From contig NZ_FOLL01000002.1 in NCBI RefSeq assembly GCF_900112315.1, positions 1 to 64,000 of the forward strand: DNA of 64,000 bases, written 5' to 3'. The position numbers and the translations under genes are program-made. Below are positions 8,057-28,104 of the stretch, piece after piece. Numbering within the stretch: position 1 is the stretch's first letter; each line of letters begins with the position of its first letter. The notes beneath the pieces are model-generated. The model was not told the origin of the DNA. It saw nothing but the letters and a program-made list of their open reading frames with translations, and made no database searches. The DNA is from Parapedobacter composti. GTDB lineage: Bacteria; Bacteroidota; Bacteroidia; Sphingobacteriales; Sphingobacteriaceae.

Positions 8057-9163
8057 TTAACGACCTGTCGTAGGCCCCAGCACCGTTAATATTCCATTGC
8101 TGTCTATTTGCATCTCGTCGATGAACACTACCCGGTCATCGCCCGTCTTTTTGGTACGGCCATGGTACACGCACAGCATACGGCCGTCCGGAAGGAACAC
8201 CACGCTGTTATGGCCCGTACCGGTCACCTCTCCGCCCCTTCCGGTATTCTTCTCCAGCACCGGATTATTGGACGCTTTGGTATATGGGCCGAGGGGGTGT
8301 TTAGCCGTTGCATAACCCACCGCATAGTTTTCTCCGGCAAAATGATTTGCCGAGTACATCATGTAATATGTATCGCCATGCTTGAACGTGAATGACCCTT
8401 CTGTCCACCGGCGGTTGACCTCCCGGCTGGTTACCGACCGGCTTTCCCATTCCGCCTGGGTATCGTCCATCGTTACGGGCGGGCGCAATAGCAGCACCGG
8501 CTCGCCTATGACACCTGAAAAATCGGGTTTCAGTTCCACGCCGTACACCCAGCTTTCCTCAATCTCGTCAAACCATCCTTTCTGTTTTGCCCAGTCGGCC
8601 ACCTCACTCTCCACTGGATGTTTATAACAGCAACGGGAGTAATACAGAAACACCCGGCCATCTTCTGCAAAATAAACGTTAGCATCGATAATGGGATAGC
8701 CGGGATCGAAAACCGGACGGCTTTGCAGATCGACAAAAGGCCCTGTGGGCTTGTCCGCCACAGCAACGCCAATACGGAAATTTTCCAGTTCCTTGTTTGG
8801 GTTATCTTTCCACTGTGCGCTGTAAAACAGGTAAAATTTACCGTTATGCCTATATACTTCAGGTGCCCAATAAGCCCCACCCCAGGCAGCGGTGGAATCG
8901 CTCCAGCCATTTTCGTTTCCGGCATGATAAACCTGCCCCTCATTCTGCCAATTTACCAGGTCGGCAGAAGAATACGCCGCAAAGCCATGGCGGGCGCCGC
9001 CGGTGCCGTACATATAGTAACGGGCTGTCGCATCATCATAGATAACATACGGATCGCCAAATGCCACTTCGAGCGGGTTGTTGAACGGTGAAGAGGTTTT
9101 TTGGGCATCGCAGTGATACGGCATCGTGCAGCACAAAACGGCTGCGACAAGTGTTAATCTCAT
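8057..9163 (-). CDS. Glycoside hydrolase family 43 (secreted)
   Basis: A 368-residue five-bladed-propeller glycosidase of family GH43, which contains beta-xylosidases, alpha-L-arabinofuranosidases and arabinanases. A signal peptide ends near DAQKTSS, so it acts outside the cytoplasm. The three acidic residues expected for GH43 can be placed: Asp in FGDPYVIYD (about residue 37), Asp in IIDANVYF (about 158) and Glu in WTEGSFTFKHGDTYYMMYS (about 255). WAPEVY near 100 is another family hallmark. The Glu sits in EGS rather than the more usual EGP. It follows the esterase gene by 6 bp in the PUL series. Confidence 0.93.
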   Translation of the reverse strand: MRLTLVAAVLCCTMPYHCDAQKTSSPFNNPLEVAFGDPYVIYDDATARYYMYGTGGARHGFAAYSSADLVNWQNEGQVYHAGNENGWSDSTAAWGGAYWAPEVYRHNGKFYLFYSAQWKDNPNKELENFRIGVAVADKPTGPFVDLQSRPVFDPGYPIIDANVYFAEDGRVFLYYSRCCYKHPVESEVADWAKQKGWFDEIEESWVYGVELKPDFSGVIGEPVLLLRPPVTMDDTQAEWESRSVTSREVNRRWTEGSFTFKHGDTYYMMYSANHFAGENYAVGYATAKHPLGPYTKASNNPVLEKNTGRGGEVTGTGHNSVVFLPDGRMLCVYHGRTKKTGDDRVVFIDEMQIDSNGILTVLGPTTGR

Positions 9164-9169
9164 CTTTCT

Positions 9170-10009
9170 TTATTTCTTGGTTAATTCGTTTACATGGCGG
9201 AGCAGGATATGAAATCCAGGTGCGGCCATGGCACCATGATCAAAACCATCCAGCTCATAGAGGTATACCTGTTGATGGCCGGCCACTTTCATCATGCGGT
9301 AAAAATATGCGGTTTCTTCATACCTGCCCAATAGCTCCAGCTCGCGGTCTCCCGATACCAGCACCAGCGGCGGCGCATCGCTGCGCACATGAAACAACGG
9401 CGCATATTCATCTACGATGGGCTGGGTCTCTTTTATGCCCCGCTCCGCGCGGACGGTCATATGGGTAACAGCGTGTCCGCTGAAGTCGATAATCCCCGCA
9501 AGTTTGTCGGCATCCACGCCGTACCGTTGCAGCCACGACTTGTCCAAGCCCACCATTGCAGCGAGGTACCCGCCTGCGGAATGGCCGGAAATAAAAATTT
9601 TACCGGGGTCGCCCCCATAATCTGCGATTTGCTTGAATACCCACGCGATTGCAGCCGCAGCATCGTCAATATACACAGGGTTTTTCACTTTCGGGCTCAG
9701 CCGGTAATTGACCGCCACGACAGCAATCCCTTTTTCCTTCAGCTCGTTGGGAATAAATTTTTCGCCCCCCGTGAGCCCGCCGCCATGGAACCAGACCACC
9801 GTTGGGAAGCCTGTTGCATCTTCGGGATAGTAAATATCCAATACGCACCGTTCATGAATGTAAGTATCATCGGAAACGCCAGACCGGTAATGGATATTCT
9901 CTTTGACCCGGTACGTTTCCTGTGCTGTCGCTGGACCTGTCAGGCAGGCGACAAACAAGCCAATAAATAATGTGCAGAAGTTATATTGAGCGGTATGTAT
10001 ATGATTCAT
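9170..10009 (-). CDS. Secreted alpha/beta hydrolase (esterase)
   Basis: A 279-residue alpha/beta-hydrolase with a signal peptide (MNHIHTAQYNFCTLFIGLFV..., cleavage near TAQETY). The oxyanion motif HGGG (about residue 75) and the nucleophile motif GHSAGG (about 143) place it in the HSL/BD-FAE-like carboxylesterase group; the catalytic His is probably in FDHGAM near 262. In this PUL a role in removing acetyl or other acyl groups from the glycan is a natural inference, but the sequence cannot show which ester is cut. The gene lies 10 bp after the HepT remnant and 6 bp before a GH43 gene. Confidence 0.9.
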   Translation of the reverse strand: MNHIHTAQYNFCTLFIGLFVACLTGPATAQETYRVKENIHYRSGVSDDTYIHERCVLDIYYPEDATGFPTVVWFHGGGLTGGEKFIPNELKEKGIAVVAVNYRLSPKVKNPVYIDDAAAAIAWVFKQIADYGGDPGKIFISGHSAGGYLAAMVGLDKSWLQRYGVDADKLAGIIDFSGHAVTHMTVRAERGIKETQPIVDEYAPLFHVRSDAPPLVLVSGDRELELLGRYEETAYFYRMMKVAGHQQVYLYELDGFDHGAMAAPGFHILLRHVNELTKK

Positions 10010-10282: not shown

Positions 10283-11842
10283 TTAGTCCCTGCGCGGACG
10301 CTGTGGTCGGGGAGGCGTAGCTCCCGGGTGCCGGGCCAATATGGCGCAGAGTTTTGCAACGATTTCCGGGTGCTGGCCAGCAATATTCTTCAGCTCGAGA
10401 TGATTATCCCGATAGTCGTACAGCTCGTACTCAGGCGAAGCCGCCGGGTCGCCAATTTTTTTCCACGCTACCATGCGATAACGATCGGTGCGGATTGCCC
10501 TTCCAAGGTAACCGCCCCTGGGAAAGCAATGGTAAACATGATCCCGGATCTGACTTTCGGGATCGTTGAGCACAGGCACCATGCTGATTCCATCGATCGG
10601 CTGCCCGACATCCGGTGCTGGCAGTCCGGCGAGTTCCACCAATGTCGGGTAGATATCGACCGTTTCCGTCAGCTGATCGGTATGCGAGCCCGCCCGGGTG
10701 ACGCCCGGAGCCGAGATGACCAGGGGGATATGATTGGCCAATTCATAATTGACATGTTTGGTCCACATTCCCATTTCGCCCAGCAGGTAGCCGTGATCGC
10801 CCCAAAGCACCACGATCGTGTTTTCATCGAGACCGAGCGCAGCCAGTTCGTCCAGCACCTTGCCAATCTGGGCATCCACATAGCTGACGCCCGCGTAGTA
10901 ACCATGTATCAGTTTTCGCGCCAGGCTATCCGGGAATGGCTCCTCGGTCACCTTTGCGGGGACGGGCGCATACTGATCGATCTCATCGCCGTATTTAACG
11001 GCATAAGGGGGAGCGCCCTCCGGCCGGGCAACGTGCTGAGGCAGGGGAAGTGTATTTTCATCATACATATCCCAGTATTTTTTAGGCACCGAAAACGGCA
11101 GGTGCGGGCGCGCGAACCCTACAGCGAGGAAAAAGGCGCCTTCAGACTGTGACTTTAACGCCCTGAGCCGTTCAACTGCCCGATTCGCTATGCGTCCATC
11201 AGCGTAGGCATCATCGGCAACGTCCGGCGATTCCCAGGCCAAGCCCCGCGGCAGCGACCGCGAATAACCCCATTCCATATTGGAGAACAAGGCTTCCTCA
11301 CGGGTAGTTCCCGCCGCTTTGCTGGCCGGATCAACATATTCGATAACTAAATCCTTATGATGGGGCACGCTCCATGAAGCGGTGTCATCATACGTATTGT
11401 GACCGATGTGGAACACTTTTCCCATCGATTCGGTGTGGTAGCCGTGTTGCTTAAAATATTGCGGGAGTGTCACGGCGTCCGGATAATAATCGCGGAAATC
11501 TCTTCCGAAATCATAGATACCCGTTGATGTGGATCGGCTGCCCAGCATCAAGTTATATCGGGAAGGCGCGCAAACCGCCTGGTTCGAATACGCCCTGTCG
11601 AAGCGGATAGCCCGCGCCGCCAATTGATCGATATGCGGCGTCAGGGCAACCGGATCGCCGTATGCACCAATAGCGGGGCGCAGGTCATCCACAAGAATCA
11701 GCAGCACGTTGGGGTGCTTCTTAACCAGGCCAACGTCCGAACCTTCCACATCAGACGGACAAAGGGCCAGCGGCAACCAAGTAAGCAGCAGCCGACATCC
11801 AAAATCGCGAATTCCCCATTTATTAATAATCGTTACCATCAT
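10283..11842 (-). CDS. Sulfatase, S1 family (iduronate-2-sulfatase-like)
   Basis: An arylsulfatase-fold enzyme that hydrolyses sulfate esters after its active-site Cys is converted to formylglycine. HPNVLLILVDDLRP gives the metal-binding Asp pair; the maturation signature is C-A-P-S-R in AVCAPSRYNLML. GKVFHIG and WGDHGYLLGEMGMWTKH supply further metal and sulfate ligands. Overall order resembles iduronate-2-sulfatases (S1_7-like). I start the gene at the ATG pair at 11842, which puts the hydrophobic segment RLLLTWLPLAL in signal-peptide position and leaves 19 bp to the upstream gene; an in-frame ATG at 11896 would overlap that gene by 35 bp. No sulfatase-maturating enzyme lies in the window. 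Confidence 0.93.
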   Translation of the reverse strand: MMVTIINKWGIRDFGCRLLLTWLPLALCPSDVEGSDVGLVKKHPNVLLILVDDLRPAIGAYGDPVALTPHIDQLAARAIRFDRAYSNQAVCAPSRYNLMLGSRSTSTGIYDFGRDFRDYYPDAVTLPQYFKQHGYHTESMGKVFHIGHNTYDDTASWSVPHHKDLVIEYVDPASKAAGTTREEALFSNMEWGYSRSLPRGLAWESPDVADDAYADGRIANRAVERLRALKSQSEGAFFLAVGFARPHLPFSVPKKYWDMYDENTLPLPQHVARPEGAPPYAVKYGDEIDQYAPVPAKVTEEPFPDSLARKLIHGYYAGVSYVDAQIGKVLDELAALGLDENTIVVLWGDHGYLLGEMGMWTKHVNYELANHIPLVISAPGVTRAGSHTDQLTETVDIYPTLVELAGLPAPDVGQPIDGISMVPVLNDPESQIRDHVYHCFPRGGYLGRAIRTDRYRMVAWKKIGDPAASPEYELYDYRDNHLELKNIAGQHPEIVAKLCAILARHPGATPPRPQRPRRD

Positions 11843-11861
11843 ATTCGCAGGCGCCCAGCAA

Positions 11862-13073
11862 CTACGCCAATAACGCCATTCCAAACCCCGGTGCATCCGG
11901 TGGAATCAATTTCCCATCTGCTATGCGGTATTTGCTAAGATCTACGTCGTCCGATGTGCTTGTGACCCCTTCTATGGTAACTGTATTGCCCAGCCCCCCT
12001 GCCAGATGGGCGGTATAATATGACTTAAGCAACGATCCCCAGGCATGCGGTGAGGCCTGTACGTCGTATCGAATCAGCTTCGGCATGAGCTTCCGCCAGT
12101 TGGTAAATCCAAGTCCCTCGATATCCGTGAGGTGCACATCCATCAGTTTCAGTTCCATCAGTTCGTCCAGCAACGCGGGGTCTGGATCAGCCTCTCCATC
12201 GGCCAGTAGGCTTTTGACATTTGCCTTATTCATCCAGTCGCGCAGCTTCCGGTAGTCTTCGACAGTTTCGTGGAACGGTTCCTCAATCCAAAACAGCGGA
12301 ATATCCTGCACCCCTTTAAGATAAGCAATAAACTCGTTTACCGTAAAGCCGTTATTGCCATCTACCAAGATTTCGCAGTCTGGAAATGCCGCCGCAACCT
12401 GCTTGGTCACTTCAATATCACGGGCCAGCCCCGCTGTTTGCGACATCCAGCGATTTCCTCTTCCGATTTTCAATTTAAACTGCCGATACCCCAAATCATA
12501 ATCATACCGGCATTCGTTGAGGATTTTATCGATACCACCTGGCGCGTGCGCCGGCTCCAGATCGTCAAAATAAATCATACCGCTGTAATACTTGGTGATA
12601 TACGGCTTGTCTCTACCCAATAAGGCATATACCGGTTTATTCAATACCACCCCTGCCAGGTCGTGCAACGCCATATCGAACGGAAGGTACTTGTCATCAG
12701 TAATGCCGATGGAGACCTGGAATACCGCTGATAGCTTTTTGCCAACTAGTTCCGGTACAAGACGGTGCGCATGACCACGGCCGCCCCGCAGTGATGCCCA
12801 GCCCTTTGCGCCTTGGTCTGTGGTAATCATGCAGAATTCATTCCGGATACCATACCCGTGTATGTCCAGCCGCGCATTCTTGCCTACCAGACGCGGGTAT
12901 TGCAGACGCACATCACCGAACGTGACGGACTGTATGGTGTGATAGCCGAGTTCTTCCTGCCAGCGCTTGGCTTGGGGTGCGGACTGAAGCCATCCTGCAA
13001 GGGATGGTTTGGCGATCAAGCTTACCGCCGCTCCCGTGTTTAACAGATGGATAAACGTTCTCCTTTTCATCAT
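11862..13073 (-). CDS. Exported enolase-superfamily enzyme (mandelate racemase / muconate-lactonizing type)
   Basis: A 403-residue member of the enolase superfamily, whose enzymes abstract a proton next to a carboxylate; many dehydrate sugar acids. Visible residues are the KLKIG motif with its lysines (about residue 205), metal ligands in ILVDGNNG (about 240), WIEEPF (about 267) and LADGE (about 293), and the His of SPHAWGS (about 345). The N-terminus MMKRRTFIHLLNTGAAVSL looks like a Tat-type signal (RR followed by T-F-I-H and a short hydrophobic stretch), so the enzyme is predicted to be exported, which is unusual for a sugar-acid dehydratase. Uronic acid released by the alpha-glucuronidases is an attractive but unproven substrate. 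Confidence 0.88.
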   Translation of the reverse strand: MMKRRTFIHLLNTGAAVSLIAKPSLAGWLQSAPQAKRWQEELGYHTIQSVTFGDVRLQYPRLVGKNARLDIHGYGIRNEFCMITTDQGAKGWASLRGGRGHAHRLVPELVGKKLSAVFQVSIGITDDKYLPFDMALHDLAGVVLNKPVYALLGRDKPYITKYYSGMIYFDDLEPAHAPGGIDKILNECRYDYDLGYRQFKLKIGRGNRWMSQTAGLARDIEVTKQVAAAFPDCEILVDGNNGFTVNEFIAYLKGVQDIPLFWIEEPFHETVEDYRKLRDWMNKANVKSLLADGEADPDPALLDELMELKLMDVHLTDIEGLGFTNWRKLMPKLIRYDVQASPHAWGSLLKSYYTAHLAGGLGNTVTIEGVTSTSDDVDLSKYRIADGKLIPPDAPGFGMALLA

Positions 13074-13164: not shown

Positions 13165-14265
13165 TCAGAAAACAGTTTGCCGCTGCCCGAACCGCGGCGC
13201 TTCCTGAGGCGTCATACTGGGTACCCCACCCGCAATCTCGGGCCAGCCATCATTCCAATGTACTTTATCGAGCATCAGCATGCGCCGGCTGGCACCGCTT
13301 GACACTTTACCCTTGGAACGGTCGATACCGTGATAGATAAACCAGTCCGTTCCTTCATCATCGGCAATCAGCTGCGCATTGTGTCCGGGGCCTGCTATTT
13401 TTTCATTTCCTTTGAGAAACAACGTCCCCTTACCGCGCTCGGTAATCGCATGACCTTCTTTGTCGAGATATGGTCCCATCAAGTTGTTTGACCGGGCTAC
13501 CAATACGTGATACTGACTGTTGGCACCATCGCAGCAGCTGCCTTTGGAGCCGAAAAAATAATAATATCCGTCTCGTTTATGAATCATCACCGCTTCGTAA
13601 TCCCCAGCCGCGATCTTTATCTTCTGCGACAAGTCAGGCACGGAAAGCCCATCATCCGCCAGCCTCACGGCATAGGTACCTTGTGCAGGCAAATCGCTGA
13701 AACTTCCCCAAAACAGGTATTTCTCTCCTTCCTCCTCGAAAAAGAAAGCGTCGATGGAATTGGGCACCCCCACTTCCTCGCTCGTGAACAACTTGCCATG
13801 GTCTACAAAAGGTCCGGTGGGTTTCTCCGCTACGGCCACGCCAATTCCCGGATTGGGGTCACCCCAAGTAGAATACGCATAATAGAGATAATACTTACCA
13901 TCTACTTCGTTTACGTCAGGCGCCCAGAGTCCGCCGTTGTTTTTCCATGCGGGTTTGCTGGAAAGCGCCTCCCCCACCACCTGCCAGTCTACCAAATCTG
14001 TCGACCCCAAAATGGGTATCAACCGGCTGCCCTGCCCATCGCCCCAATCGTCTTGCGTGCCGTAAGCATAAAAATGCCCGGTTTGCGGATCCCGGATCAC
14101 AGTAGGATCAGCAAGGATGGGCTCGAAAACAGGGTTAGTATAGGTACTCGCCCCAGTCGCGGGTGGTTGCTGATCATTGGGATGCTGGTCCTTTGGTAGT
14201 CTTCCGCAGCCCGCAATGGTCAGCAGGACTATAAACACCTGAGAAAATAATACATGTAACATCAT
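13165..14265 (-). CDS. Glycoside hydrolase family 43 lipoprotein (arabinanase-like)
   Basis: A 366-residue GH43 enzyme. The N-terminus MMLHVLFSQVFIVLLTIAGCG contains a lipobox (TIAGC), so it is likely anchored to a membrane. The acidic triad is placed at LADPTVIRD (about residue 54), NSIDAFFF (about 172) and probably AGDYEAVMIHKRDGYYYFF (about 223); the last block followed by SKGSCC resembles GH43 endo-arabinanase/arabinofuranosidase sequences. GPGHNAQL and WFIYHG are further family blocks. It follows the sialidase-like gene by 40 bp; a 91-bp gap separates it from the enolase-superfamily gene. Confidence 0.92.
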   Translation of the reverse strand: MMLHVLFSQVFIVLLTIAGCGRLPKDQHPNDQQPPATGASTYTNPVFEPILADPTVIRDPQTGHFYAYGTQDDWGDGQGSRLIPILGSTDLVDWQVVGEALSSKPAWKNNGGLWAPDVNEVDGKYYLYYAYSTWGDPNPGIGVAVAEKPTGPFVDHGKLFTSEEVGVPNSIDAFFFEEEGEKYLFWGSFSDLPAQGTYAVRLADDGLSVPDLSQKIKIAAGDYEAVMIHKRDGYYYFFGSKGSCCDGANSQYHVLVARSNNLMGPYLDKEGHAITERGKGTLFLKGNEKIAGPGHNAQLIADDEGTDWFIYHGIDRSKGKVSSGASRRMLMLDKVHWNDGWPEIAGGVPSMTPQEAPRFGQRQTVF

Positions 14266-14305: not shown

Positions 14306-15523
14306 TTATCTATCAGTCTGATTTATCGCAGCCGGCATACCAGAAACTATACGTCCGAAAATCATCCATGCACCAATCCGCCCGCCGTCGAAGTTGGTTG
14401 CCGAAGTGGCTACTACGGTTGTATCGTCCCATACGGTTATCGCGTTCCACTTCGCCTCCCGATCCGTCGGAACGGGAAACGGCTGTGAGATATATTGAAA
14501 ATTACGTCCCGTCTTATCCCCGATTGCTACCTCCATCGTTGATTTTTCCCAGTCGGTGCCACGCCCCTTCGTCGTTTGATACGATAGCAGCACCTCGCCG
14601 GTAGTGAGACGCGCTAAATACGGCGCTCCGGCGTAAACGCTGTCCGGCAACGCGTCCTTCAGCGCGTACTCCCGCATGGGTGAGTCAGCCGTCACGGGTG
14701 CTTTCCAATTGTCGCTGATGCCTGTGCGTACGATGTAAGGTTGGAACTGCCCCTCCTTATTGTCCTCAATGGCGACAAGGATTTCACCGTCTATCAATAG
14801 CGGCACAGGCATTCCATCGCGTCGGCCCGCCCGGAAACTGACGGTTTGGGGTTCAGTATCCCATGATTGACCGTTATCAGCGGACGCCAACATCGATATT
14901 TCCTGTTCATCCGAAGCGGTATACGGCGCTTCATTGGCAAAATAAACCTGCAACGTGCCGTCTGGCAACTGCAAGAAAGCCGGTTCCCAACAGCCGTCTT
15001 TGAACCGGGGCTCGGCTTCGTAGATCACCTGCGGTTCGCTCCAGGTCTTTCCCCTATCTCTGCTTCGCGAAATGGCAATCGCAAAAGGAACTACTTCATC
15101 CCGGCGCGGACGGTAATTACAGGCAGCTACCCAGTCGCCGTTTTCAAGCTCGATGATTTCTGGGTTAGCCATATTGACCTTCACTTCATTGCCATGGGCA
15201 TCTGTATGGCTATATCCGCGAAATGTGACAACCGGGTTACTCCATGTCTTTCCGGCGTCAACGCTCGAGATCAATTCCGTGTTACCGTCGGCTTCGTACA
15301 CCGCAACAGCGGTGCCGTCGCGGAATCGCTTCACCCGTGGGTATCCAGCGTAGTTTAATTGCCGTCCGCCTCTTGGGGCAAGCTGCTGCAATGTGCTGGA
15401 GTCCCATTCTATGCGGATATCCCTGTGTTTGGAAAACGTTTCGTTGCGTTCAACCTGTTGGGCGATGACGAATCGGAAAGCCACCATGCAAATCAGTATT
15501 AAACGACAGCCTTTCTTTTTCAT
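14306..15523 (-). CDS. Secreted sialidase-fold (BNR/Asp-box) propeller protein
   Basis: A 405-residue exported protein (signal peptide MKKKGCRLILICMVAFRFVIAQ) with at least three Asp-box blocks: SSVDAGKTWSNP, SRSRDRGKTWSEP and SADNGQSWDTEP. These mark a six-bladed sialidase-type beta-propeller. The FRIP motif of true sialidases is not seen at the expected place; the equivalent segment reads YPRVKRFRDG. In a pentose-directed PUL a GH93-like exo-arabinanase or another propeller glycosidase is as likely as a sialidase, so no substrate is assigned. It lies between two GH43 genes with short gaps (19 and 40 bp). Confidence 0.85.
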   Translation of the reverse strand: MKKKGCRLILICMVAFRFVIAQQVERNETFSKHRDIRIEWDSSTLQQLAPRGGRQLNYAGYPRVKRFRDGTAVAVYEADGNTELISSVDAGKTWSNPVVTFRGYSHTDAHGNEVKVNMANPEIIELENGDWVAACNYRPRRDEVVPFAIAISRSRDRGKTWSEPQVIYEAEPRFKDGCWEPAFLQLPDGTLQVYFANEAPYTASDEQEISMLASADNGQSWDTEPQTVSFRAGRRDGMPVPLLIDGEILVAIEDNKEGQFQPYIVRTGISDNWKAPVTADSPMREYALKDALPDSVYAGAPYLARLTTGEVLLSYQTTKGRGTDWEKSTMEVAIGDKTGRNFQYISQPFPVPTDREAKWNAITVWDDTTVVATSATNFDGGRIGAWMIFGRIVSGMPAAINQTDR

Positions 15524-15542: not shown

Positions 15543-16514
15543 TTACCTTCTCACCGGAGTGACATAATCCTTATCAATCTGCATAACGGTTTGGCCTTCT
15601 TTTTCGGCAAACGTAACCCTGCCGATATGCATGATGCGGGGATGTATTTTTGTTTCGCTATGATGCGAATGGAACACGATACGGAGGTTTCCTTCCTTGT
15701 CGGTAAACATGGCACTATGCCCTACTCCTACCAAATCGCCTGGTTTCTGGAAAACGGGGTTGCCTTCGTACTTCGTCCACGGTCCCATCGGATGCGCCGC
15801 GGTAGCGAAACCAATCCCGTAAAACGGACTCTCATAACTATTGGCAGAATAGGTCATATAGTACGTATCGCCATGCTTCAGCACAAATGGCCCTTCGTTG
15901 ACCCTCGGCCAAACCTTTTCCCACTCTTGGGAAACATTGATGCATTTTTTCATCGTCGTCGTCCGTATCGTCATCAAGTCATTCTCCAGTTCAGCTACCC
16001 AGATATTGAGCCCATCGTTGAATCGATCGAAAAACAGGTAAGGTTTACCATCATCGTCAATGAACAGCGAATTGTCAATACTTTTTTCACCTTTAAGCAT
16101 CGGTTCCTGCACCTTTTGCCTGAACGGACCTAATGGGCTATCGCCAACGGCTACACATATATGTTCATTTGCCGTATAGTACATGTAGAATTTACCCTTT
16201 ATGTAGTACACCTCCGGAGCCCAGAACCAACGGTCGCCCCAGGAATCGTCTTTATGCAATGCCAGTCGGTTGCCGGGCACGGCTTTCCAGTTCAGCAGAT
16301 CATCGGATATAAACACGGCGATTCCATCCGCTGCAGAGGTGCCATAGGCATAATATGTACCCTCATACAACATGATAAACGGGTCGCCAAAGAAAACACT
16401 TGCCTCGGCAGGCTGAGGGGCACCCTCTTCCGTCCCAGAACCTGGCACTGAAAAAGTGGCTTCCGAAAAAAATACGGGCAAAAAACTGATTAGAAGTATG
16501 AATCGCATTTTCAA
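15543..16514 (-). CDS. Glycoside hydrolase family 43 (secreted)
   Basis: A compact 323-residue GH43 enzyme with a signal peptide (MKMRFILLISFLPVFFSEAT). The acidic triad is clear: FFGDPFIM (about residue 43), SIDNSLFIDDDG (about 148) and VNEGPFVLKHGDTYYMTYS (about 210). WAPEVYYIKGKFYMYY near 95 is the usual second-blade block. The sequence pattern is close to that of the GH43 at 8057-9163, suggesting both act on related side chains. It is the first gene after a 209-bp gap in the minus-strand series, so it may have its own promoter. Confidence 0.93.
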   Translation of the reverse strand: MKMRFILLISFLPVFFSEATFSVPGSGTEEGAPQPAEASVFFGDPFIMLYEGTYYAYGTSAADGIAVFISDDLLNWKAVPGNRLALHKDDSWGDRWFWAPEVYYIKGKFYMYYTANEHICVAVGDSPLGPFRQKVQEPMLKGEKSIDNSLFIDDDGKPYLFFDRFNDGLNIWVAELENDLMTIRTTTMKKCINVSQEWEKVWPRVNEGPFVLKHGDTYYMTYSANSYESPFYGIGFATAAHPMGPWTKYEGNPVFQKPGDLVGVGHSAMFTDKEGNLRIVFHSHHSETKIHPRIMHIGRVTFAEKEGQTVMQIDKDYVTPVRR

Positions 16515-16723: not shown

Positions 16724-18205
16724 TTAATAAGCCGCTGCCCGAATATCGCGCTTCCTCAAGGGCCCTTTTTTTGTTATTTTTTCCGCATGTTTAGCCGCAC
16801 CGGGCTTTTCTCCTTTTTGCCAGTCTCCAGGCAGCCGGTTCCCATAGATATCGTCGCGGTCGGGAGTTGGGTTTTCTGGGACAGTATCTCCTGTTTCGTC
16901 AATCCATTGATCCATCACTTTTCGTAAAAAACGCAGCTTTTTACGGTATCTTTTGGTATTAACAACATTATGGAACTGATGAGGGTCTGCGGTAACGCGG
17001 TACAACTCCTCAGGTGGCCGAGGTACACGGAAGATGTCTTCCTGTTCTTTTCGTGTCAGGCCGTTATCATACGCGTCCCAGAGTTCATTCCCCGCTGGAT
17101 AATGGCGCGTTGATTCAGCGGCATACGCCGCCTTCTCGGGAAAGGCGTTCCGGATATAAACCCAATCCTTATACCGAACCATCCGTTGGTGTGCCTGGAA
17201 AACATGCCAATTATGTTCAGCGAATACAAAATCCCGGGAACCCTTTTTCGTGCCGTTTTTCAAGAATGGGCGGAAGCTCTGCCCTTGTATACGGCCATCC
17301 ACCGCCATACCTGCCAACTCCAACAATGTTGGTGCAACATCAATGGTGCTCACCAATGCTTTGGTTCTTCCGGTTGCTACCCCTGGTCCATAGACAATAA
17401 ATGGAGTCTTGATACCACTATCATATAAACGGGTCTTATTTCGTGGAAAAGGGCTTCCGTTGTCACTCATAAATATCACGTAAGTATGGTCTAACAACTG
17501 TTGCCTTTCCAGCTCTTCCATAAGTGCCCCTAAATAATAGTCGACACGTGAAACTTCATGATAATAACCGGCAAGATCGCTCCGAGTAACCGGTCCGTCA
17601 TATAGCATTGGTGGTACGAACACCGCATCGGGACTGTACGCTGTTCCTTTGTCATCAAACTGCCAATCCCGATGGGCGTCATAAGAAGCAAACCAAGCTA
17701 AAAACGGTTTGTCCCTTGGCCTCGTTTTTATGATTGAAACCCAGTCTTCCTCTCCTCCCGGCCCTTTCCCCGGCGAAATTAAGCTAAAAGCCTGCTTAAC
17801 TTGCGGGCCCATATGGTTCTTTCCCGATAATACGGTATAATATCCAGCTTCTTTGAGCAACTGCGGGAACATTACCTGTCCAGGGGGAAGCGGATCATGC
17901 AGCTCCGGTGCGCCGGTATTATGCGGATAACGCCCTGTAATCAGACTAGCGCGACTTGGACTGCAGCTACTTGCTGTCAAATAGGCATTTTCAAACAATA
18001 GTCCCTTGTTAGCCAAGCTGTCAATATTAGGTGTTTTAACCGTCGGATTCCCATAACATGCGATGTCTCCCCACCCGATATCATCGGTGATGAACAGAAT
18101 AAAATTGGGCCTTTTAGTGGCCTGTCCATGAAGATTGGTGGAAATTCCAGCGGCCAGCACCGTTAATATCCACCAAAGCCAGTATTTAACCTGATCGGCC
18201 ATCAT
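16724..18205 (-). CDS. Sulfatase, S1 family (N-sulfoglucosamine sulfohydrolase-like)
   Basis: A 493-residue S1 sulfatase with a signal peptide (hydrophobic ILTVLAAGISTNLHG after MMADQVKYWLWW). PNFILFITDDIGWGDIACYGNP carries the metal-binding Asp pair; the formylglycine signature is C-S-P-S-R in ASSCSPSRASLITG (about residue 80). LSGKNHMGPQ, FASYDAHRDWQ and FMSDNGSPFPRNKTRLYD are typical of the S1_8-like/SGSH group. The C-terminus is strongly basic. This is a different sulfatase subtype from the other two in the PUL, which suggests a different sulfate position. It is 31 bp behind the GH115 gene. Confidence 0.93.
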   Translation of the reverse strand: MMADQVKYWLWWILTVLAAGISTNLHGQATKRPNFILFITDDIGWGDIACYGNPTVKTPNIDSLANKGLLFENAYLTASSCSPSRASLITGRYPHNTGAPELHDPLPPGQVMFPQLLKEAGYYTVLSGKNHMGPQVKQAFSLISPGKGPGGEEDWVSIIKTRPRDKPFLAWFASYDAHRDWQFDDKGTAYSPDAVFVPPMLYDGPVTRSDLAGYYHEVSRVDYYLGALMEELERQQLLDHTYVIFMSDNGSPFPRNKTRLYDSGIKTPFIVYGPGVATGRTKALVSTIDVAPTLLELAGMAVDGRIQGQSFRPFLKNGTKKGSRDFVFAEHNWHVFQAHQRMVRYKDWVYIRNAFPEKAAYAAESTRHYPAGNELWDAYDNGLTRKEQEDIFRVPRPPEELYRVTADPHQFHNVVNTKRYRKKLRFLRKVMDQWIDETGDTVPENPTPDRDDIYGNRLPGDWQKGEKPGAAKHAEKITKKGPLRKRDIRAAAY

Positions 18206-18236
18206 TTAAATCCATTTAACAACTTCTATTCCAAGA

Positions 18237-21209
18237 TTATTCTACCTTCGTCATGGAAGGCCCTAAATAGGATTTTTTCAGCCCGCCGAAATCAAGCACA
18301 ATCTTCTGTATGACCATGCCCGGATCGCCGCACTTGATGTGAAGCGTATGCTTACCGGGCTTGTCAATATAGAGCGTCGATTTATTTACGGCGGCATTAC
18401 GGAGCACATTATCCGCCCAAGTCTGTGTATATTCCGGTGCGGAGGACGATGGCAGTGCTACCGGTCCGTCGTCGATGCATACCGCATACCGGGTTTGGGA
18501 GGTATGCTGTTCATGAAAGCCGAAGTCACGATCGGAGTTCAGCGGAAAAACAGGCAATACATAAGTGTATACATCAACCGGACCGTGGTGAAAGGTATAA
18601 AAATCATACGCTACGCCCGGCGATTGATCATCCCGCGGATTACGTACCTTAGCGACCGGATCACCTATCATCACGCATCTGTCCTCTACCCCCAGGTTAT
18701 CGATCAAGTACATCTTGATATCTTCCGTTTCGCGTTTGCGATGAAAATCAGCCCCTGGAATTGCAATAACACCATTGTCTTCAACAAAGTGTCCACGTAC
18801 ATCCGTTATGGCTGGTAATTCGGGATTAAAGACCGACACCAATACGTGTTCGGTTATATCGCCGCTGGTAAACCGGATATATCCGGATACCTTTTCGCCG
18901 ACCGGCACGCGCTCCCAATCAACACCCACCGCTACCCTGTCGCCATAAACCACTGTGCCCTGTGCCTTGCTTACCGTTATCCAATCGGCTGATACCTCCA
19001 ATTGCCAGTCAAAGGAACCGCCACCGGTATTGAACACATCAACAACGTATTTTTTATTGGAGAAAAACTTTGAAAATGCGGGCAAATGATGATAACTGCT
19101 GACACCTTTCAATGGCTCCTGTCCCTCCACAAACAATGCCATGGCGGGTTGTACAGGAACCTTCAGAGAATCCAGCTTGGGCAACTCAAAATAAGAGGCT
19201 ACCACGCCTTGTTTCAGCGACATTATCCGCTTCCACTTGCTTTCCAACAAATCGTTGTATTCGTAAGAAATAGTATACAACGTATCATAGTAGTGCTTTA
19301 CTTTATCCTTCAGCAAATTGGCTTCCGACCGGCCTTGGGCTAAAAATAACCGTTGTTGCTGCGCGGTAAGCCACTTTTTGTTCATCAGTTCAGCCCCTTT
19401 GACCGGATAATAGACCAACTGGAAAAACGACGGCCTTTCTTCCGGCGAGACCTCGTTCAATAAGCGCTCAGCTTTTTTCCCGATACGGTGATAATCAGCA
19501 ATTCTTTTTTCGGCTTCGCCGTAGTTGACAAACGAAAAATCCGTATCTGTGGGCCTTTCCCTGCCTTGTTTGAATGTATTCCACTGATAGCCCCACCCCA
19601 TGAACTCCGGCTTGCGGGCAAAAGCAAGACGGTGATATTCACGGCTTATCTCCCTGAACTCGTCAAAATAGTGCTGGCCATACATCGCACTCCACCAGTG
19701 GGCCTGGAAGTCAGGAACATTATCAAAATTGAACTGCGTGAGGTCATAGGCCATGGCCAGAAACAGGGTAACCGGGAATTCGCACGACTTGATGTCGCCG
19801 GCATTCAGCAGCCAAAGCCGGTCGGCTCCTGTACGGTATGCTTTATGCAGCTCCTCGTACATCAATGCCGGTGGTGTGGAAGAAAGCCAGAGGTAATCGT
19901 GCGGTATCCCCAGGTATGAGGCATGGTAGTATACCCCCGAACCGCCGGAGCGTTTCCGTTCTTTCTCGTTGCTCAATTGTTTCATGTAGCCGTAATTATC
20001 ATCCGGCCATACCAAAATCACGTCGTCCGGCAATTCCAGTCCGGCAAGGTACAGATCCAGCACCTCTTTATATGGAGTAAACGCCTGCGGAATTTCTTCA
20101 ATTGGTTTATCAATATACTTTTGGAGGATAGTCCGTTGGTCTTTCAACGCTTGGCCCACCAGTTTAACGCGTTGTTCCAGCGTGTAGTTGCCCGTCATGG
20201 CCCGGTCATGCAACCCACGCAGCGCCAGCGTATATACGTTCTCATACGGCGCATTTTCCTTTACCCGTTTGTCCAGCACCCGTAAAATACCTTCCTTATT
20301 AGTCATGTAATTCCATTCGCCCATCGTCTTTTTATCCCATTCGCTGGCGTTGTTGAACAATAGGGGTTCCGGGTGCACGGATCCCATAACAATCCCGAAC
20401 GAATCGGCGACGAGCTTATTCTCAGGATATTTGTTAAAAGCCCCGCTTGCTTCGTGCATTGCCGGACATAAATAATTGGCCTTCAGCCTGAGCAGCAGTT
20501 CGAACACTTTAGCGTACGTTTTCGGGCCGATGTCTTTCCGTTCGGGGTCAAACGTATGCTTGGCCCATGGCAGCAGGCCCCAATCCTCATCATTGATAAA
20601 AATACCACGGTATTTAACTGTTGGCGCAGGAGCTGTAAAAGGTTTGACATCGAGATAGAGGCGATCCCTTTTCTTTACCGGAACATCTGCCCACCAATAC
20701 CAGGGCGAAACACCTATCGCCTCCGATATGGAAAATAGTCCGTAAGCCGTCCCCCTGCGGTCGCTCCCGGCCACCACTAACGCCTTGGACACACCTGGGA
20801 ATGGATTGATTACCAATTGAATGGTATACCGTTCCCACGCTCCCACGATGGAGTCAACCGTCATTTTCTTTTCTTCAACCAACCGGTCAATCAAGCCGTT
20901 TTGCCCCAAACTACCCACCAACACCATATTTTTAGCCATTTTCCCTGTTACCGGACCAACAGCGACTGACATTCCCGACACACGTTCCACATCCTCAGCA
21001 AAAAGGCGGGCACTGGTTTTGACCGCAGTAAAATCTGCCGTATCGTAGTAAATGGCCGTAGCCTCCCGCACATCAACCAACGGAAACCTGTTGCGATGAT
21101 TGGTCCCGGCATCCGAAAGGAAAACCTGTGCGTTTGCCATGGCTACTAATGCAAGTAAAAAGCCTGCCGTAACTATTGATTTGCTGATGTGATTTGTAAA
21201 GTTTAACAT
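18237..21209 (-). CDS. Glycoside hydrolase family 115 (xylan alpha-1,2-glucuronidase)
   Basis: A 990-residue exported protein (signal peptide ending near ANAQVF) that matches GH115 over its whole length. GH115 enzymes remove (4-O-methyl)glucuronic acid from internal as well as terminal xylose units of xylan. Family blocks seen are GSDRRGTAYGLFSISEAIGV near residue 160, PWYWWADVPVKK, KYRGIFINDEDWGLLPWAK near 205, LKANYLCPAMHE near 250, ILVWPDDNYGYMKQLS near 400 and YHASYLGIPHDYLWLSS near 435. A GH115-type C-terminal beta domain follows (residues about 820-990). The size is normal, so the gene is complete. Sulfatase genes flank it on both sides (20 and 31 bp). Confidence 0.95.
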   Translation of the reverse strand: MLNFTNHISKSIVTAGFLLALVAMANAQVFLSDAGTNHRNRFPLVDVREATAIYYDTADFTAVKTSARLFAEDVERVSGMSVAVGPVTGKMAKNMVLVGSLGQNGLIDRLVEEKKMTVDSIVGAWERYTIQLVINPFPGVSKALVVAGSDRRGTAYGLFSISEAIGVSPWYWWADVPVKKRDRLYLDVKPFTAPAPTVKYRGIFINDEDWGLLPWAKHTFDPERKDIGPKTYAKVFELLLRLKANYLCPAMHEASGAFNKYPENKLVADSFGIVMGSVHPEPLLFNNASEWDKKTMGEWNYMTNKEGILRVLDKRVKENAPYENVYTLALRGLHDRAMTGNYTLEQRVKLVGQALKDQRTILQKYIDKPIEEIPQAFTPYKEVLDLYLAGLELPDDVILVWPDDNYGYMKQLSNEKERKRSGGSGVYYHASYLGIPHDYLWLSSTPPALMYEELHKAYRTGADRLWLLNAGDIKSCEFPVTLFLAMAYDLTQFNFDNVPDFQAHWWSAMYGQHYFDEFREISREYHRLAFARKPEFMGWGYQWNTFKQGRERPTDTDFSFVNYGEAEKRIADYHRIGKKAERLLNEVSPEERPSFFQLVYYPVKGAELMNKKWLTAQQQRLFLAQGRSEANLLKDKVKHYYDTLYTISYEYNDLLESKWKRIMSLKQGVVASYFELPKLDSLKVPVQPAMALFVEGQEPLKGVSSYHHLPAFSKFFSNKKYVVDVFNTGGGSFDWQLEVSADWITVSKAQGTVVYGDRVAVGVDWERVPVGEKVSGYIRFTSGDITEHVLVSVFNPELPAITDVRGHFVEDNGVIAIPGADFHRKRETEDIKMYLIDNLGVEDRCVMIGDPVAKVRNPRDDQSPGVAYDFYTFHHGPVDVYTYVLPVFPLNSDRDFGFHEQHTSQTRYAVCIDDGPVALPSSSAPEYTQTWADNVLRNAAVNKSTLYIDKPGKHTLHIKCGDPGMVIQKIVLDFGGLKKSYLGPSMTKVE

Positions 21210-21229
21210 TTTGTCTATGGTTTAATAGC

Positions 21230-22708
21230 TTACTTAGCATATACACCGGTATTTCCCCGTTCCCAAAGCGGCGTTAGTTGGCGGATAATATCCGGAGAGC
21301 GCTCCGCTATGTTCCGGGTTTCCAGCGGATCAGTCGCATGATCATATAACTCTATAACTGGTTGTTCCTTACGGAAATACCGGGTAAGCCGGAACTGAGG
21401 GGTCACCATGCTAATTCCGTGATTATAATAACTATAGGCCACGTCAGCCCAGGCTTTGTCTTGTACATCGTTCAGTAAGGGGATCAAGCTCCTGCCGTCG
21501 GCCTGCGATAACGGGGGCAGATCACACAGTTCGAGCAGCGTGGGCCCAATGTCGATGGTACTCGTTATCCGATTAACAACCTTGCACCGGCTCATAGCCG
21601 GTGTCTTAATCATCAGCACGCTTCGGAGTGCCCGGTCAAACAACGTATGCTTTCCCCAAACCCGGTAATCTCCTAAATGCCAACCATGATCGCTCCACAA
21701 GACCACGACGGTCCGGTCAGCTAAACCCGTTTCCTCCAGCGCCTGCAGAACCTTGCCCACCTGAGCATCTACATAACTGATGCAAGCATAGTAGCCGTGT
21801 ATCAACTTTCGCGCGTACCCGTCTGAAAGAGGTTGGTCAAGCGCCGCGCTTTCCTCGCCCAGCCGGTACTGATTAAATTCGGCACTGTTGTGCAAGCTAG
21901 CCAAGTTTATATTCGCTGGAATATTGGGAACAGCAGTAAGAGGCAAATGGCCAGCGTCATATAAATCCCAATATTGCTGAGGTGCATTAAAGGGTAAATG
22001 AGGTTTGAAAAAGCCTACTCCCATAAAGAAAGGCTTTTCTTGTCGGGCAAGCATCTTCAGTTTATCAACGGCCAATGCAGCCGTCAGGCCATCGGGATAC
22101 CCTTCATCAGGCACATCGGCAGCCTCATAAGGCGGCACTTCTCCCTGCATAGTAATCCGGCTTTCGCCATCTGCGTATGCAAAAAACGCATTCCAACCGT
22201 GCCCCCACTTACCCGGATTAAACGACACTTCATCCCAACTCCGGGGCAGTTCCCGCTGGTCGCTCTTAGGACCGGCATATGGATACCGATATCCATCAGG
22301 CGAGTGGCTGATTTTCCCGATACCAACGGTATGGTAACCGTTTCTACGGTACTGCTCAATAAACGTTTCCGGCTCATTTCCTATCGCCGTTTCCGGATCC
22401 GACAATATTTTCGCAGCTTCATTGCCCAACGCTGCCTTCGTACGCGGCAGCGTGCTACGTAGCAGGCTGTAACGGGAAGCCCCGCAGGTGGGTACCGTCA
22501 CATAATGTTTCGTAAATACAGCAGACCGGGCGGCCAAGCTATCGATATAAGGCGACTTCACGATGCTGTTACCGTAACAGCCCAATTCAGGCATTAAGTC
22601 GTCAACGCATATCAACAACACGTTATAGCGCTTGTTATGCATTGTTTGCGTCCACGCGTAAGACGGCAGAAGCAAAAAAAATGTCACGATCCGCGGCAAG
22701 AATCTCAT
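21230..22708 (-). CDS. Sulfatase, S1 family (iduronate-2-sulfatase-like, CGASR signature)
   Basis: A 492-residue S1 sulfatase with a signal peptide (MRFLPRIVTFFLLLPSYAW). RYNVLLICVDDLMPELGCYGN supplies the metal-binding aspartates. The maturation motif is C-G-A-S-R in VPTCGASRYSLL, with Ala instead of the usual Pro at the third position, a variant known in iduronate-2-sulfatase-like enzymes. GIGKISHS, GFFKPHLPFNAPQQYWDLYD and LWSDHGWHLGDYRVWGKHTL follow. It resembles the sulfatase at 10283-11842 more than the one at 16724-18205. Its start overlaps the stop of the upstream GH43 gene by 4 bp, implying translational coupling. Confidence 0.93.
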   Translation of the reverse strand: MRFLPRIVTFFLLLPSYAWTQTMHNKRYNVLLICVDDLMPELGCYGNSIVKSPYIDSLAARSAVFTKHYVTVPTCGASRYSLLRSTLPRTKAALGNEAAKILSDPETAIGNEPETFIEQYRRNGYHTVGIGKISHSPDGYRYPYAGPKSDQRELPRSWDEVSFNPGKWGHGWNAFFAYADGESRITMQGEVPPYEAADVPDEGYPDGLTAALAVDKLKMLARQEKPFFMGVGFFKPHLPFNAPQQYWDLYDAGHLPLTAVPNIPANINLASLHNSAEFNQYRLGEESAALDQPLSDGYARKLIHGYYACISYVDAQVGKVLQALEETGLADRTVVVLWSDHGWHLGDYRVWGKHTLFDRALRSVLMIKTPAMSRCKVVNRITSTIDIGPTLLELCDLPPLSQADGRSLIPLLNDVQDKAWADVAYSYYNHGISMVTPQFRLTRYFRKEQPVIELYDHATDPLETRNIAERSPDIIRQLTPLWERGNTGVYAK

Positions 22709-23772
22709 TCCCCAGAAGGCTTTTTTATTCGTTCACCGATTTTCACCGGCACACCAAAATTCGGCGTACCGTCTGGATTCCACGTAAACTTCTGGATACG
22801 CGGATTACGATAGTTGGTGCTTCCACCATCGGGCAGGTTACGTGCATGGTATATGATCCAATCTTCCGTGCCATCCGGTGATTTAAAGAATCCATTGTGA
22901 CCTGGGCCATAGGCTCCGTTTTCCGCACGCATGGAAAACACCGGCTGGGGATGTTTGGTCCAATGCGAAGGATCCATCGGATCGCCTCCATTTTTAAGTC
23001 TAAGCCAGCCCAAACAATAATGGTCGGACGAAAAGAGACTTGCAGAAAAAATGACAAACAACTCTCCTTGCGGATTAAAAAGAGGTTGAGGCCCTTCATT
23101 AATGCCGCTCGGAGCCCGCTGCTTCTCCCAGCTATATATCGGTGTGCTTATTTGCACACGCTCGCCCTCAATTGTCCAAGGATTACTCATTTTAGCTATA
23201 AAAATCTTCTGGTTCCCGCCTGTTCCCCCAGACCATAACATGTAAAGCTGATCGTTATATTTCATTACCGTTCCGTCAATCGCCCATTCGTCCGTCGGGT
23301 CAGCCACCCGCCCTTTAAGTTCCCAAGCCCCTCTTAACGGGCTTCCTGATTTGTTTTCAATCACATACATCCTATGGCTGGTTCCATTTCCATCAGCCGC
23401 AAAATACATATACCATTTGCCATCTATCTCATGTAATTCGGGAGCCCAGATATTTTGGGAATAGGTTTCTCCCGGTGGCGGGACAAATATATTGATGGGA
23501 GTTGCGTTGGCCAACTCACTTACTTTTTTGATCACATAAAGCACCAAACGACTCCCGTGGGTATACGTATAGTAATACGTTCCGTCCTTTTGTGTTATCC
23601 AGGGATCCGCGCCACGCGGGAGGAGCGGGTTGGTAAACGTATTATCATCAATGGGAGTCTCTTCCTCGGAGGGGGGTGGCATGGCCTCGGATGGCCCTTC
23701 AGTTTTACAAGCGAGTATCAATACGATACATATCCCCATTAAAATACGGAAGTGCGCTTTTTCTAATTTCAT
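22705..23772 (-). CDS. Glycoside hydrolase family 43 lipoprotein
   Basis: A 355-residue GH43 enzyme with a lipoprotein signal (ILMGICIVLILACK, lipobox LILAC). The triad is placed at RGADPWITQKDG (about residue 57), EWAIDGTVMKY (about 166) and SGINEGPQPLF (about 222). The IWAPELHEIDGKWYMYF block is typical; GPGHNGFFKSPDG and WIIYHARN near the end match GH43 alpha-L-arabinofuranosidase-like sequences. A Pro/Glu-rich linker follows the lipid anchor, as in surface-exposed PUL enzymes. Its last four bases overlap the start of the following sulfatase gene. Confidence 0.92.
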   Translation of the reverse strand: MKLEKAHFRILMGICIVLILACKTEGPSEAMPPPSEEETPIDDNTFTNPLLPRGADPWITQKDGTYYYTYTHGSRLVLYVIKKVSELANATPINIFVPPPGETYSQNIWAPELHEIDGKWYMYFAADGNGTSHRMYVIENKSGSPLRGAWELKGRVADPTDEWAIDGTVMKYNDQLYMLWSGGTGGNQKIFIAKMSNPWTIEGERVQISTPIYSWEKQRAPSGINEGPQPLFNPQGELFVIFSASLFSSDHYCLGWLRLKNGGDPMDPSHWTKHPQPVFSMRAENGAYGPGHNGFFKSPDGTEDWIIYHARNLPDGGSTNYRNPRIQKFTWNPDGTPNFGVPVKIGERIKKPSGE

Positions 23773-23787
23773 GATTCTTGATTTTTT

Positions 23788-24933
23788 CTACCGAGTGTAT
23801 AACCCTACTTCTGCCAAAGCGATATTATTTTCGCTGCTACTTTGGGCGCTTTTCCCGATAATCCTAAAATATCGGGCCTTCACAGCTGTAGGAATCGTGA
23901 TGAATTGCTTTTCCCCGTTATTTTCCAAATCAAATTCACCGTGGGGCTGCCAATCTTCACCATCTTCGCTGGTCAACAACTCCACGGTCTTTGGCCGCGC
24001 CGCAGAATTGCCCACACGGGTGATGATGACAAACCCTTCTATATTTTCATGCAGCACACCCATATCCACAGTGATGGTATGTGGATAGGTGAACGGTGGA
24101 GTAGCGCCCAACTGATTCACCCATATTGTGCTGGGGTTACCATCAATAGCGTTGGACGCTAATCGGTTGCCGGCGGCATCCTGACTTGAGGCTGTAGCAA
24201 TCCAACCGGTTTTTTCTAGTTCAATTGGCGGGCCTTTTACCCGTTGTGTATACCAGTCGGTATAAAACGTATCAATGGCCAATGGACTGGGTAGGTATAC
24301 CGTACGATATTGGATAAATTCCGTAAATTCAAACTCCTTGAGGACACTCCTATCCGCATCGGCGTAGGCCCTTACCAAACGGTCATTACCATTGACATCC
24401 TGATAACTGATTTCCGAATAATAGGCTTGTGCACTGGGGTTGCCTCCCCAAACCGCCATTACGCTGTCTCCTTCGTATAGCGCTTCATCCACCGGCCTCA
24501 CCAGCAGGGTTTGCTGGTATTGGTCACCATAGGTGTTGGCAATAAAATCGGTCTTAACGGATCGGTTGCCCAATTCGTCGTATATATAGATTTCAAACAA
24601 GTAAGTGCCCTCTTGAAGGTTGTCGATCACGATTTTCACCGTGTCGTTTGGCGGGTTTTTGATGTTAGCTACCAACGAATCTTGTCTGCCATTCCAATAG
24701 ATGTGGGCTTCTGAGACCTTGGGATCTGGCGCTGCGGGCCAGGAAAGCTGGAGTCGGTTTTTCCCAGGATGCACTTTGAGCGAGTCGCCCGGTGTGGGGG
24801 CATAGATGATACGCCCGCCTTTGACAAACTCACGGAAGGTTTCGTCCATTTTACCGCAGGCAGACACTATCATTACAAGCAATGCTGTCGCGGCCACATT
24901 TAGGGCATTAAATCGAATATTGATGATTTTCAT
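23788..24933 (-). CDS. DUF4998 and F5/8-type C domain lipoprotein (probable glycan-binding protein)
   Basis: A 381-residue lipoprotein (LLVMIVSACGKMDETF). The N-terminal part, with GRIIYAPTPGDSLKVHPGKNR followed by fibronectin-like strands, fits the Bacteroidota DUF4998 domain. The C-terminal 140 residues fit a discoidin (F5/8 type C) domain: WIATASSQDAAGNRLASNAI, PHTITVDMGV, ARYFRIIG and ALAEVGLY. Lipoproteins of this kind encoded just after SusD usually serve as surface glycan-binding proteins. No catalytic residues are expected. It lies 20 bp behind the other binding-protein gene. Confidence 0.85.
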   Translation of the reverse strand: MKIINIRFNALNVAATALLVMIVSACGKMDETFREFVKGGRIIYAPTPGDSLKVHPGKNRLQLSWPAAPDPKVSEAHIYWNGRQDSLVANIKNPPNDTVKIVIDNLQEGTYLFEIYIYDELGNRSVKTDFIANTYGDQYQQTLLVRPVDEALYEGDSVMAVWGGNPSAQAYYSEISYQDVNGNDRLVRAYADADRSVLKEFEFTEFIQYRTVYLPSPLAIDTFYTDWYTQRVKGPPIELEKTGWIATASSQDAAGNRLASNAIDGNPSTIWVNQLGATPPFTYPHTITVDMGVLHENIEGFVIITRVGNSAARPKTVELLTSEDGEDWQPHGEFDLENNGEKQFITIPTAVKARYFRIIGKSAQSSSENNIALAEVGLYTR

Positions 24934-24953
24934 GATATTTCTATTGAATGCGT

Positions 24954-26156: not shown

Positions 26157-26188
26157 TTCTTTTTTTAGGTCAAGAAAAAGCTGGTCCG

Positions 26189-28093: not shown

Positions 28094-28104
28094 GTTTTCT
28101 CTCT

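Follow-up and report, generated by a model that had tools for sequence, protein, structure and literature searches.

A predicted twin-arginine-exported branch of D-galacturonate dehydratase-like enolases, represented by a putative acid-sugar dehydratase of Parapedobacter composti

Introduction

Can a sugar-acid dehydratase of the enolase superfamily work outside the inner membrane, and if so, on which substrate? Sugar-acid enzymes of this kind are normally kept inside the cell. In a 64,000-nucleotide stretch of the Parapedobacter composti genome (hereafter the window), a gene within a polysaccharide utilization locus (PUL) encodes a protein that resembles mandelate racemase-type enzymes and begins with a twin-arginine-like signal. 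Here, we followed up a sequence-only reading of this gene by alignment, structure prediction, phylogeny and comparison of gene neighborhoods.

Results

The enzyme retains the catalytic residues of the mandelate racemase subgroup

Encoded on the minus strand at 11862-13073, the protein is 403 residues long with the N-terminus MMKRRTFIHLLNTGAAVSLIAKPSLAGW, and it matched Pfam MR_MLE_C (E 7.6e-30). An alignment of 75 rows was built from the P. composti enzyme, 73 homologues and the solved protein 3n4f; four of the 77 homologous loci (L037, L065, L068 and L072) were omitted as broken or cut. Results showed that K200, K202, D238, E264, E265, E294 and D317 were identical in all 75 rows, and H343 and E368 in 74, the remaining row having a gap. 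Altogether 34 residues were invariant, 3n4f included. By comparison with mandelate racemase, K200/K202 would correspond to K164/K166, D238/E264/E294 to the three metal ligands, H343/D317 to the dyad and E368 to E317. The enzyme and its features, all on the minus strand, are as follows.

11862-13073, minus strand: predicted exported acid-sugar dehydratase homologue of the enolase superfamily (mandelate racemase subgroup), 403 aa (from the open reading frame, Pfam, alignment and model)
12996-13073, minus strand: twin-arginine-type signal, residues 1-26, with RRTF at 4-7 (from the motif; cleavage likely after SLA, by rule of thumb)
12468-12476, minus strand: KxK motif K200-L-K202, presumed base on one face (invariant in 75 rows)
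12360-12362, minus strand: presumed metal ligand D238 (alignment)
12282-12284, minus strand: presumed metal ligand E264 (alignment)
12192-12194, minus strand: presumed metal ligand E294 (alignment)
12123-12125, minus strand: D317 of the presumed His/Asp dyad (alignment)
12045-12047, minus strand: H343 of the presumed His/Asp dyad, base/acid on the other face (alignment)
11970-11972, minus strand: E368, presumed counterpart of mandelate racemase E317 (alignment)

An AlphaFold model, for which the prediction was fed with 34 of the homologues, reached a pLDDT of 87.9; residues 1-29 fell below 50 (disordered) and the rest was confident. The model has the capping domain and modified TIM barrel of the subgroup, with Z up to 43 against subgroup structures. 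Three acidic metal ligands carried by successive barrel strands, the KxK motif, the His/Asp dyad and an E317-type glutamate place the protein in the mandelate racemase subgroup of the enolase superfamily. The sequence-only reading had claimed a full set of catalytic and metal residues and had named mutation of the catalytic residues as grounds against it; in the alignment these residues are conserved, and the claim holds. The enzyme is probably an active acid-sugar dehydratase.

The twin-arginine-type signal is a family trait

The N-terminus carries RRTF at residues 4-7, followed by 15 uncharged residues. We scored a signal as RRx[FLIMVY] near the start and then 10 or more uncharged residues. 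Such a signal was found in 61 of 73 near-full-length homologues, compared with 21 of 712 other ATG-starting open reading frames from the same loci; L057 and L069 also have one when read from an upstream start, which brings the total to 63 of 73. The homologues with the RR motif span Bacteroidota, Planctomycetota, Kiritimatiellota and others. No such signal was found in L070 (Planctomycetota) or in five Chloroflexota/Thermomicrobiota proteins (L075-L079), and four Sphingobacterium members deviate from KRR (two KRS, two KRK). Across the 68 rows of the exported group, R4 was kept in 66, R5 in 62 and F7 in 66, and the other signal positions vary. Lipobox-like cysteines follow the hydrophobic stretch in L040, L043 and L047; the regular expression also picked L055 and L060, less convincingly.

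The hydrophobic stretch is mild. Its best 11-residue Kyte-Doolittle mean was 1.66 in the P. composti enzyme (median 1.56 in 62 family members), whereas the Sec-type signals of neighboring PUL proteins were mostly more hydrophobic (2.0-3.4), with SusD (1.41) and the first sulfatase (1.54) as exceptions. The genome encodes TatC (E 2.0e-66), so that an RRx[FL]-type motif, a mildly hydrophobic stretch and the host translocase component occur together. Seven MR_MLE_C proteins in the genome exceeded the cut-off, and this enzyme alone has an RR-type N-terminal extension. A genome-wide DNA pattern for RR signals gave 1623 matches, against 1691 for a reversed control, and was uninformative. By these sequence comparisons, the RR-type signal is a trait of the family and not a peculiarity of P. 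composti, in agreement with the twin-arginine-like start first noted. Enrichment of the motif in the family, low hydrophobicity and TatC together make the predicted export very likely, and the lipobox variants also favor it.

Cytoplasmic-type folds behind an RR signal also occur among other exported sugar enzymes of Bacteroidota and Planctomycetota, such as Gfo/Idh oxidoreductases (for example L031:19406-20674 and L064:8535-9902); their family and chemistry are unrelated to those of the enzyme.

The nearest known enzyme is a D-galacturonate dehydratase without a signal

The best PDB matches by sequence were 3n4f and its sister entries, at E 6.6e-45 as against 7.9e-15 for the family ranked next, and a profile search gave the same order (6.7e-103; next 1.5e-32). 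Fold comparison of the model gave D-galacturonate dehydratase at Z 42.7-43.1 over 356-361 residues and the next family at Z 31.8; among the matches listed there was no non-enolase fold. These entries belong to the D-galacturonate dehydratase of 'Geobacillus' sp. Y412MC10 (PDB 3n4f, 3ops, 3p3b, 3qpe, 3vcc and 3v5c), and the title of one top-ranked structure names bound D-galacturonate and 5-keto-4-deoxy-galacturonate. By sequence and by fold, the Geobacillus-type D-galacturonate dehydratase is therefore the nearest known enzyme. A review (PMC6353982), with reference to the 2014 thesis of Groninger-Poe, states that the Microscilla and Geobacillus D-galacturonate dehydratases yield 5-keto-4-deoxy-galacturonate.

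The P. composti and 'Geobacillus' enzymes have in common the fold of the whole mature protein (Z about 43), the catalytic and metal residues and the HG and GRG motifs, but the 'Geobacillus' enzyme has no signal, is only 27-28% identical and differs at fixed positions beside the catalytic motifs. L-talarate/galactarate, mannonate, gluconate and arabinonate dehydratases have the same fold and catalytic frame but score Z about 31.6 or less against the model. The enzyme did not reach the NCBIfam equivalog cut-offs for arabinonate dehydratase (50.4 vs 650 bits), gluconate/galactonate dehydratase (38.1 vs 750), talarate/galactarate dehydratase (34.3 vs 500) or mannonate dehydratase (29.2 vs 550). 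Since the closest solved enzyme is a D-galacturonate dehydratase, a uronate-type substrate, as first proposed, is a reasonable guess.

In a tree of 45 of the 75 aligned sequences, six unexported rows (five from Chloroflexota/Thermomicrobiota, plus 3n4f) split from the 39 others with 100/100 support. The signal label requires two changes on this tree, one change in 53% of the bootstrap trees, and L070 and 3n4f sit on long branches. With L070 set aside, 39 positions were fixed differently between 68 exported-group rows and the six unexported ones, 4 in the signal and 35 outside it. At these 35 positions, the P. composti enzyme lacks the residues fixed in the unexported group. Several of them adjoin catalytic residues: S164-G165-M166 (YSGM) faces D-T-S (YDTS) in the unexported group, W209 faces H (RWM vs RHM), W345 faces Y (SPHAWG vs APHxYG), K350 faces G, and G369-V370 (EGV) faces W or Y then D (EWD/EYD). 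Because several of the 35 differences lie beside catalytic residues, the substrate of the solved enzyme is not simply transferable. L070 has no signal and carries exported-group residues at many of the differing positions, so signal and pocket are imperfectly tied. These comparisons suggest that the two groups likely share their chemistry, and that the exported-group substrate is probably related to, not identical with, that of the cytoplasmic D-galacturonate dehydratase.

The surrounding gene cluster points to glucurono(arabino)xylan

In P. composti the enzyme gene is part of a same-strand run with mostly short gaps, in the order GH67, SusC, SusD, DUF4959, DUF4998, GH43, sulfatase, GH115, sulfatase, GH43, BNR-repeat protein, GH43, enzyme, sulfatase, BD-FAE, GH43. 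The features are listed below by coordinate.

8057-9163, minus strand: GH43, last gene of the cluster
9170-10009, minus strand: BD-FAE-type esterase
10283-11896, minus strand: sulfatase directly downstream of the enzyme (35-base overlap, which disappears if translation begins at 11842 or 11839)
13165-14265, minus strand: GH43 directly upstream of the enzyme (homologue in 7 of 7 other Parapedobacter loci)
14306-15523, minus strand: BNR-repeat (sialidase-like propeller) protein
15543-16514, minus strand: GH43 related to 3kst (named endo-1,4-beta-xylanase)
16724-18205, minus strand: sulfatase
18237-21209, minus strand: GH115 alpha-glucuronidase
21230-22708, minus strand: sulfatase
22705-23772, minus strand: GH43 related to arabinofuranosidases and xylosidases
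26189-31329, minus strand: SusD (26189-28093) and SusC (28105-31329) pair
31382-33631, minus strand: GH67 alpha-glucuronidase with a plausible signal peptide

The combination of GH67, GH115 and GH43 points to glucurono(arabino)xylan as the target of the cluster. Some neighbors deserve a record of their own. The BNR-repeat protein, in a presumptive xylan cluster, gave only weak and partial matches to sialidases and an exo-arabinanase. The PUL sensor consists of two proteins in place of a single fused hybrid protein, namely a 1061-aa propeller-type histidine kinase (35031-38216) and an AraC-type response regulator (38191-38973) with a 26-base overlap; it is split likewise in P. luteus (L099 10898-14083 and 14058-14843), so the split does not stem from a sequencing error. 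A few kb from the cluster with its three sulfatases lie a gene of the sulfate permease family and a carbonic anhydrase (41703-44038).

The glucuronidase context is not conserved with the enzyme

The P. luteus homologue is 84% identical to the P. composti enzyme and its flanks are syntenic (GH43 78%, sulfatase 80%, esterase 78%, GH43 84%), with synteny extending upstream to the sensor kinase (73%) and a GH2 (79%). GH67, GH115 and close SusCD relatives are absent from this locus, where a different block stands. The GH67-SusCD-GH43-sulfatase-GH115 block (16724-33631) therefore looks like a gain or replacement in P. composti. Neither GH67 nor GH115 was matched in any of the 77 homologous loci, whose flanks are 10 kb or less; at its P. 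composti spacing of 18 kb GH67 would lie beyond such flanks, and whole genomes were therefore searched. Among 13 enzyme-bearing genomes, GH67 was present at E <= 1e-50 in 7, GH115 at that threshold in the same 7 and neither in 6. The GH67 and enzyme genes of P. luteus are some 257 kb apart (120 kb vs 379.5 kb on contig C14, with G268 C14 and G004 C14 taken as one record).

A point in favor of a link between the enzyme and this kind of PUL comes from three Sphingobacterium loci (L031, L051 and L052), in which the enzyme is encoded about 1 kb downstream of a PUL related to that of P. composti (SusD 46-47%, DUF4959 36-39%, DUF4998 27-29% and GH43 56-62% identity); the L031 and L051 genomes contain neither GH67 nor GH115. 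Thus, the placement of the gene in a glucuronidase PUL was correctly read for P. composti, but as a general guide to the substrate we rejected this context, given the P. luteus locus, the 77 loci and the 6 of 13 genomes without both glucuronidases. A lactone, the other substrate named in the sequence-only reading, drew no specific support.

Sulfatase adjacency was set aside as a clue as well, because sulfatases are abundant in these genomes. The downstream sulfatase is kept near the enzyme gene in P. luteus and P. koreensis (about 79-80% identity), and the first sulfatase had a match in 5 of 7 Parapedobacter loci and in 8 of the 21 Planctomycetota and mixed-phyla loci.

A putative oxidation cassette recurs beside the enzyme in two lineages

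All seven other Parapedobacter loci have, near the enzyme, genes for ThuA, a Gfo/Idh oxidoreductase, a TIM-barrel protein akin to ketose 3-epimerases and a PVC-type dehydrogenase with DUF7133 and azurin-like domains; an MFS carrier joins them in 3 of 7. Relatives of this cassette lie 4-10 kb from the enzyme in S. cellulitidis; in S. mizutaii, those of the dehydrogenase and Gfo/Idh genes lie near it. A DUF1080-like protein accompanies them in both species. P. composti carries a cassette on contig C30 (L106 7093-14241; MFS carrier, ketose-epimerase-like TIM barrel, Gfo/Idh and PVC-type dehydrogenase) that is 44-54% identical to the one beside the P. luteus enzyme. The cassette was missing from 36 of 38 Sphingobacterium loci, from all 6 loci of other Bacteroidota and from all 5 Chloroflexota/Thermomicrobiota loci, and the 21 Planctomycetota and mixed-phyla loci gave one weak dehydrogenase match. 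This adjacency, based on two lineages, is suggestive of a periplasmic oxidation pathway.

As a separate observation, 8 of these 21 loci (L054, L060-L063, L067, L071 and L073) encode a member of a protein family of about 465 aa near the enzyme, directly upstream in most; the one member scanned (L060:8412-9860) had no Pfam or NCBIfam match.

The enzyme is rare in its class and a downstream route appears open

Among 247 genomes drawn evenly from the class, P. composti alone had a member at E <= 1e-90, so the enzyme would serve a specialized accessory step. A plasmid search yielded one homologue with 57% identity, carried by a plasmid of Spirosoma; the other matches listed were 24-27% identical. 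KduI is encoded in P. composti, and each of the eight enzyme-bearing genomes of the genus has it, whereas the sole remaining genus member (G001) lacks both KduI and the enzyme; KduI also occurs without the enzyme in genomes of other genera (G009-G011 and G019), and was not matched in any of the 77 enzyme loci. A 5-keto-4-deoxyuronate route thus appears open to P. composti through KduI. Two UxaC uronate isomerases are encoded in the genome and already give free uronates a cytoplasmic route; a missing classical uronate route was accordingly rejected as the rationale for the enzyme.

Discussion

We consider the protein to be best explained as a Tat-exported periplasmic acid-sugar dehydratase of the mandelate racemase subgroup, most likely acting on a hexuronate or its aldonate or aldarate form, with a probability of roughly 0.5. 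This reading draws on the invariant catalytic set, the RR motif with its lipobox-like variants, the closest structures being those of D-galacturonate dehydratase, the presence of TatC and KduI, and an RR-type N-terminus in just this one of the seven MR_MLE_C proteins. Against it stand the 35 fixed differences from the unexported proteins, the two UxaC, KduI in enzyme-less genomes and in none of the 77 loci, the KRS and KRK variants of Sphingobacterium, and L070, which lies on the exported side with no recognizable signal. Export itself is the firmer part, and the chance that the substrate class is hexuronate is about even. We infer that the protein would fold in the cytoplasm and cross to the periplasm through Tat. 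There, D238, E264 and E294 would hold a Mg2+ ion that binds the carboxylate of the substrate, most likely a hexuronate (or its aldonate or aldarate form). K202 or the H343/D317 dyad would abstract the proton alpha to this carboxylate, and loss of the beta-hydroxyl would leave a keto-deoxy sugar acid. With a hexuronate, the product would be a 5-keto-4-deoxyuronate that the cell could import and process through KduI.

Other readings were weighed against the same evidence. An isofunctional, exported D-galacturonate dehydratase would account for the best sequence and fold match being a ligand-bound enzyme of that specificity and for R61, N66, H72, Y163, Y168, D170, R205 and W326, invariant and common to both; we nevertheless regard it as unlikely, given the identity of only 27-28%, the fixed differences adjoining active-site motifs, the 100/100 branch between the groups and a P. 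composti cluster in which no pectin genes were recognized. The cluster itself offers D-glucuronate or 4-O-methyl-D-glucuronate. GH67 and GH115 both have plausible signal peptides and stand in the same-strand run, so the sugar acid would be freed in the compartment of the enzyme. The C4 methyl of 4-O-methylglucuronate sits on the hydroxyl that UxuA must remove, and a separate route would therefore be useful. But the two glucuronidases accompany the enzyme in none of the 77 loci (within the reach of their flanks), are both missing from 6 of 13 genomes, and are absent from the syntenic P. luteus block, which makes glucuronate or its methyl ether a somewhat weaker candidate still. For 4-O-methylglucuronate in particular the odds are poor, and poorer yet for a periplasmic beta-eliminating enzyme on C4-substituted uronic acids that would take methanol (or another C4 leaving group) off 4-O-methylglucuronate and feed the KduI route; no description of such methanol removal was found in the open-access literature searched.

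Periplasmic sugar oxidation has a different basis, in that the PVC-type dehydrogenase with its azurin-like domain would make an acid or keto sugar, the enzyme would dehydrate it, and the MFS carrier, Gfo/Idh and ketose-epimerase-like TIM barrel would use the product inside. The cassette adjoins the enzyme throughout the other Parapedobacter loci, recurs in S. cellulitidis and in part in S. mizutaii, and exists on contig C30 of P. composti. However, it is not beside the enzyme in the window, it is absent from most other lineages, and such cassettes are common in these phyla; we think this reading doubtful, on a par with the D-galacturonate one. Improbable by a wide measure is the reading that the N-terminus is a relic on an ordinary cytoplasmic sugar-acid dehydratase. 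Unexported relatives do exist (L075-L079 and 3n4f) and L070 is signal-less, but R4, R5 and F7 are kept while the rest of the signal varies, and lipobox-like versions occur.

What appears to be new here is a predicted exported branch of galacturonate-dehydratase-like enolases: among the open-access literature matches listed, passages of PMC5306329 and PMC13059095 included, no description of an exported enolase-superfamily enzyme was recognized. If the predicted export is true, several phyla have a branch of the enolase superfamily that acts in the periplasm, and sugar acids are dehydrated outside the inner membrane, which would imply a carrier for the keto-deoxy product. The enzyme, whose differences from a solved relative are known, would then offer a concrete target in the search for an unassigned step of glycan breakdown.
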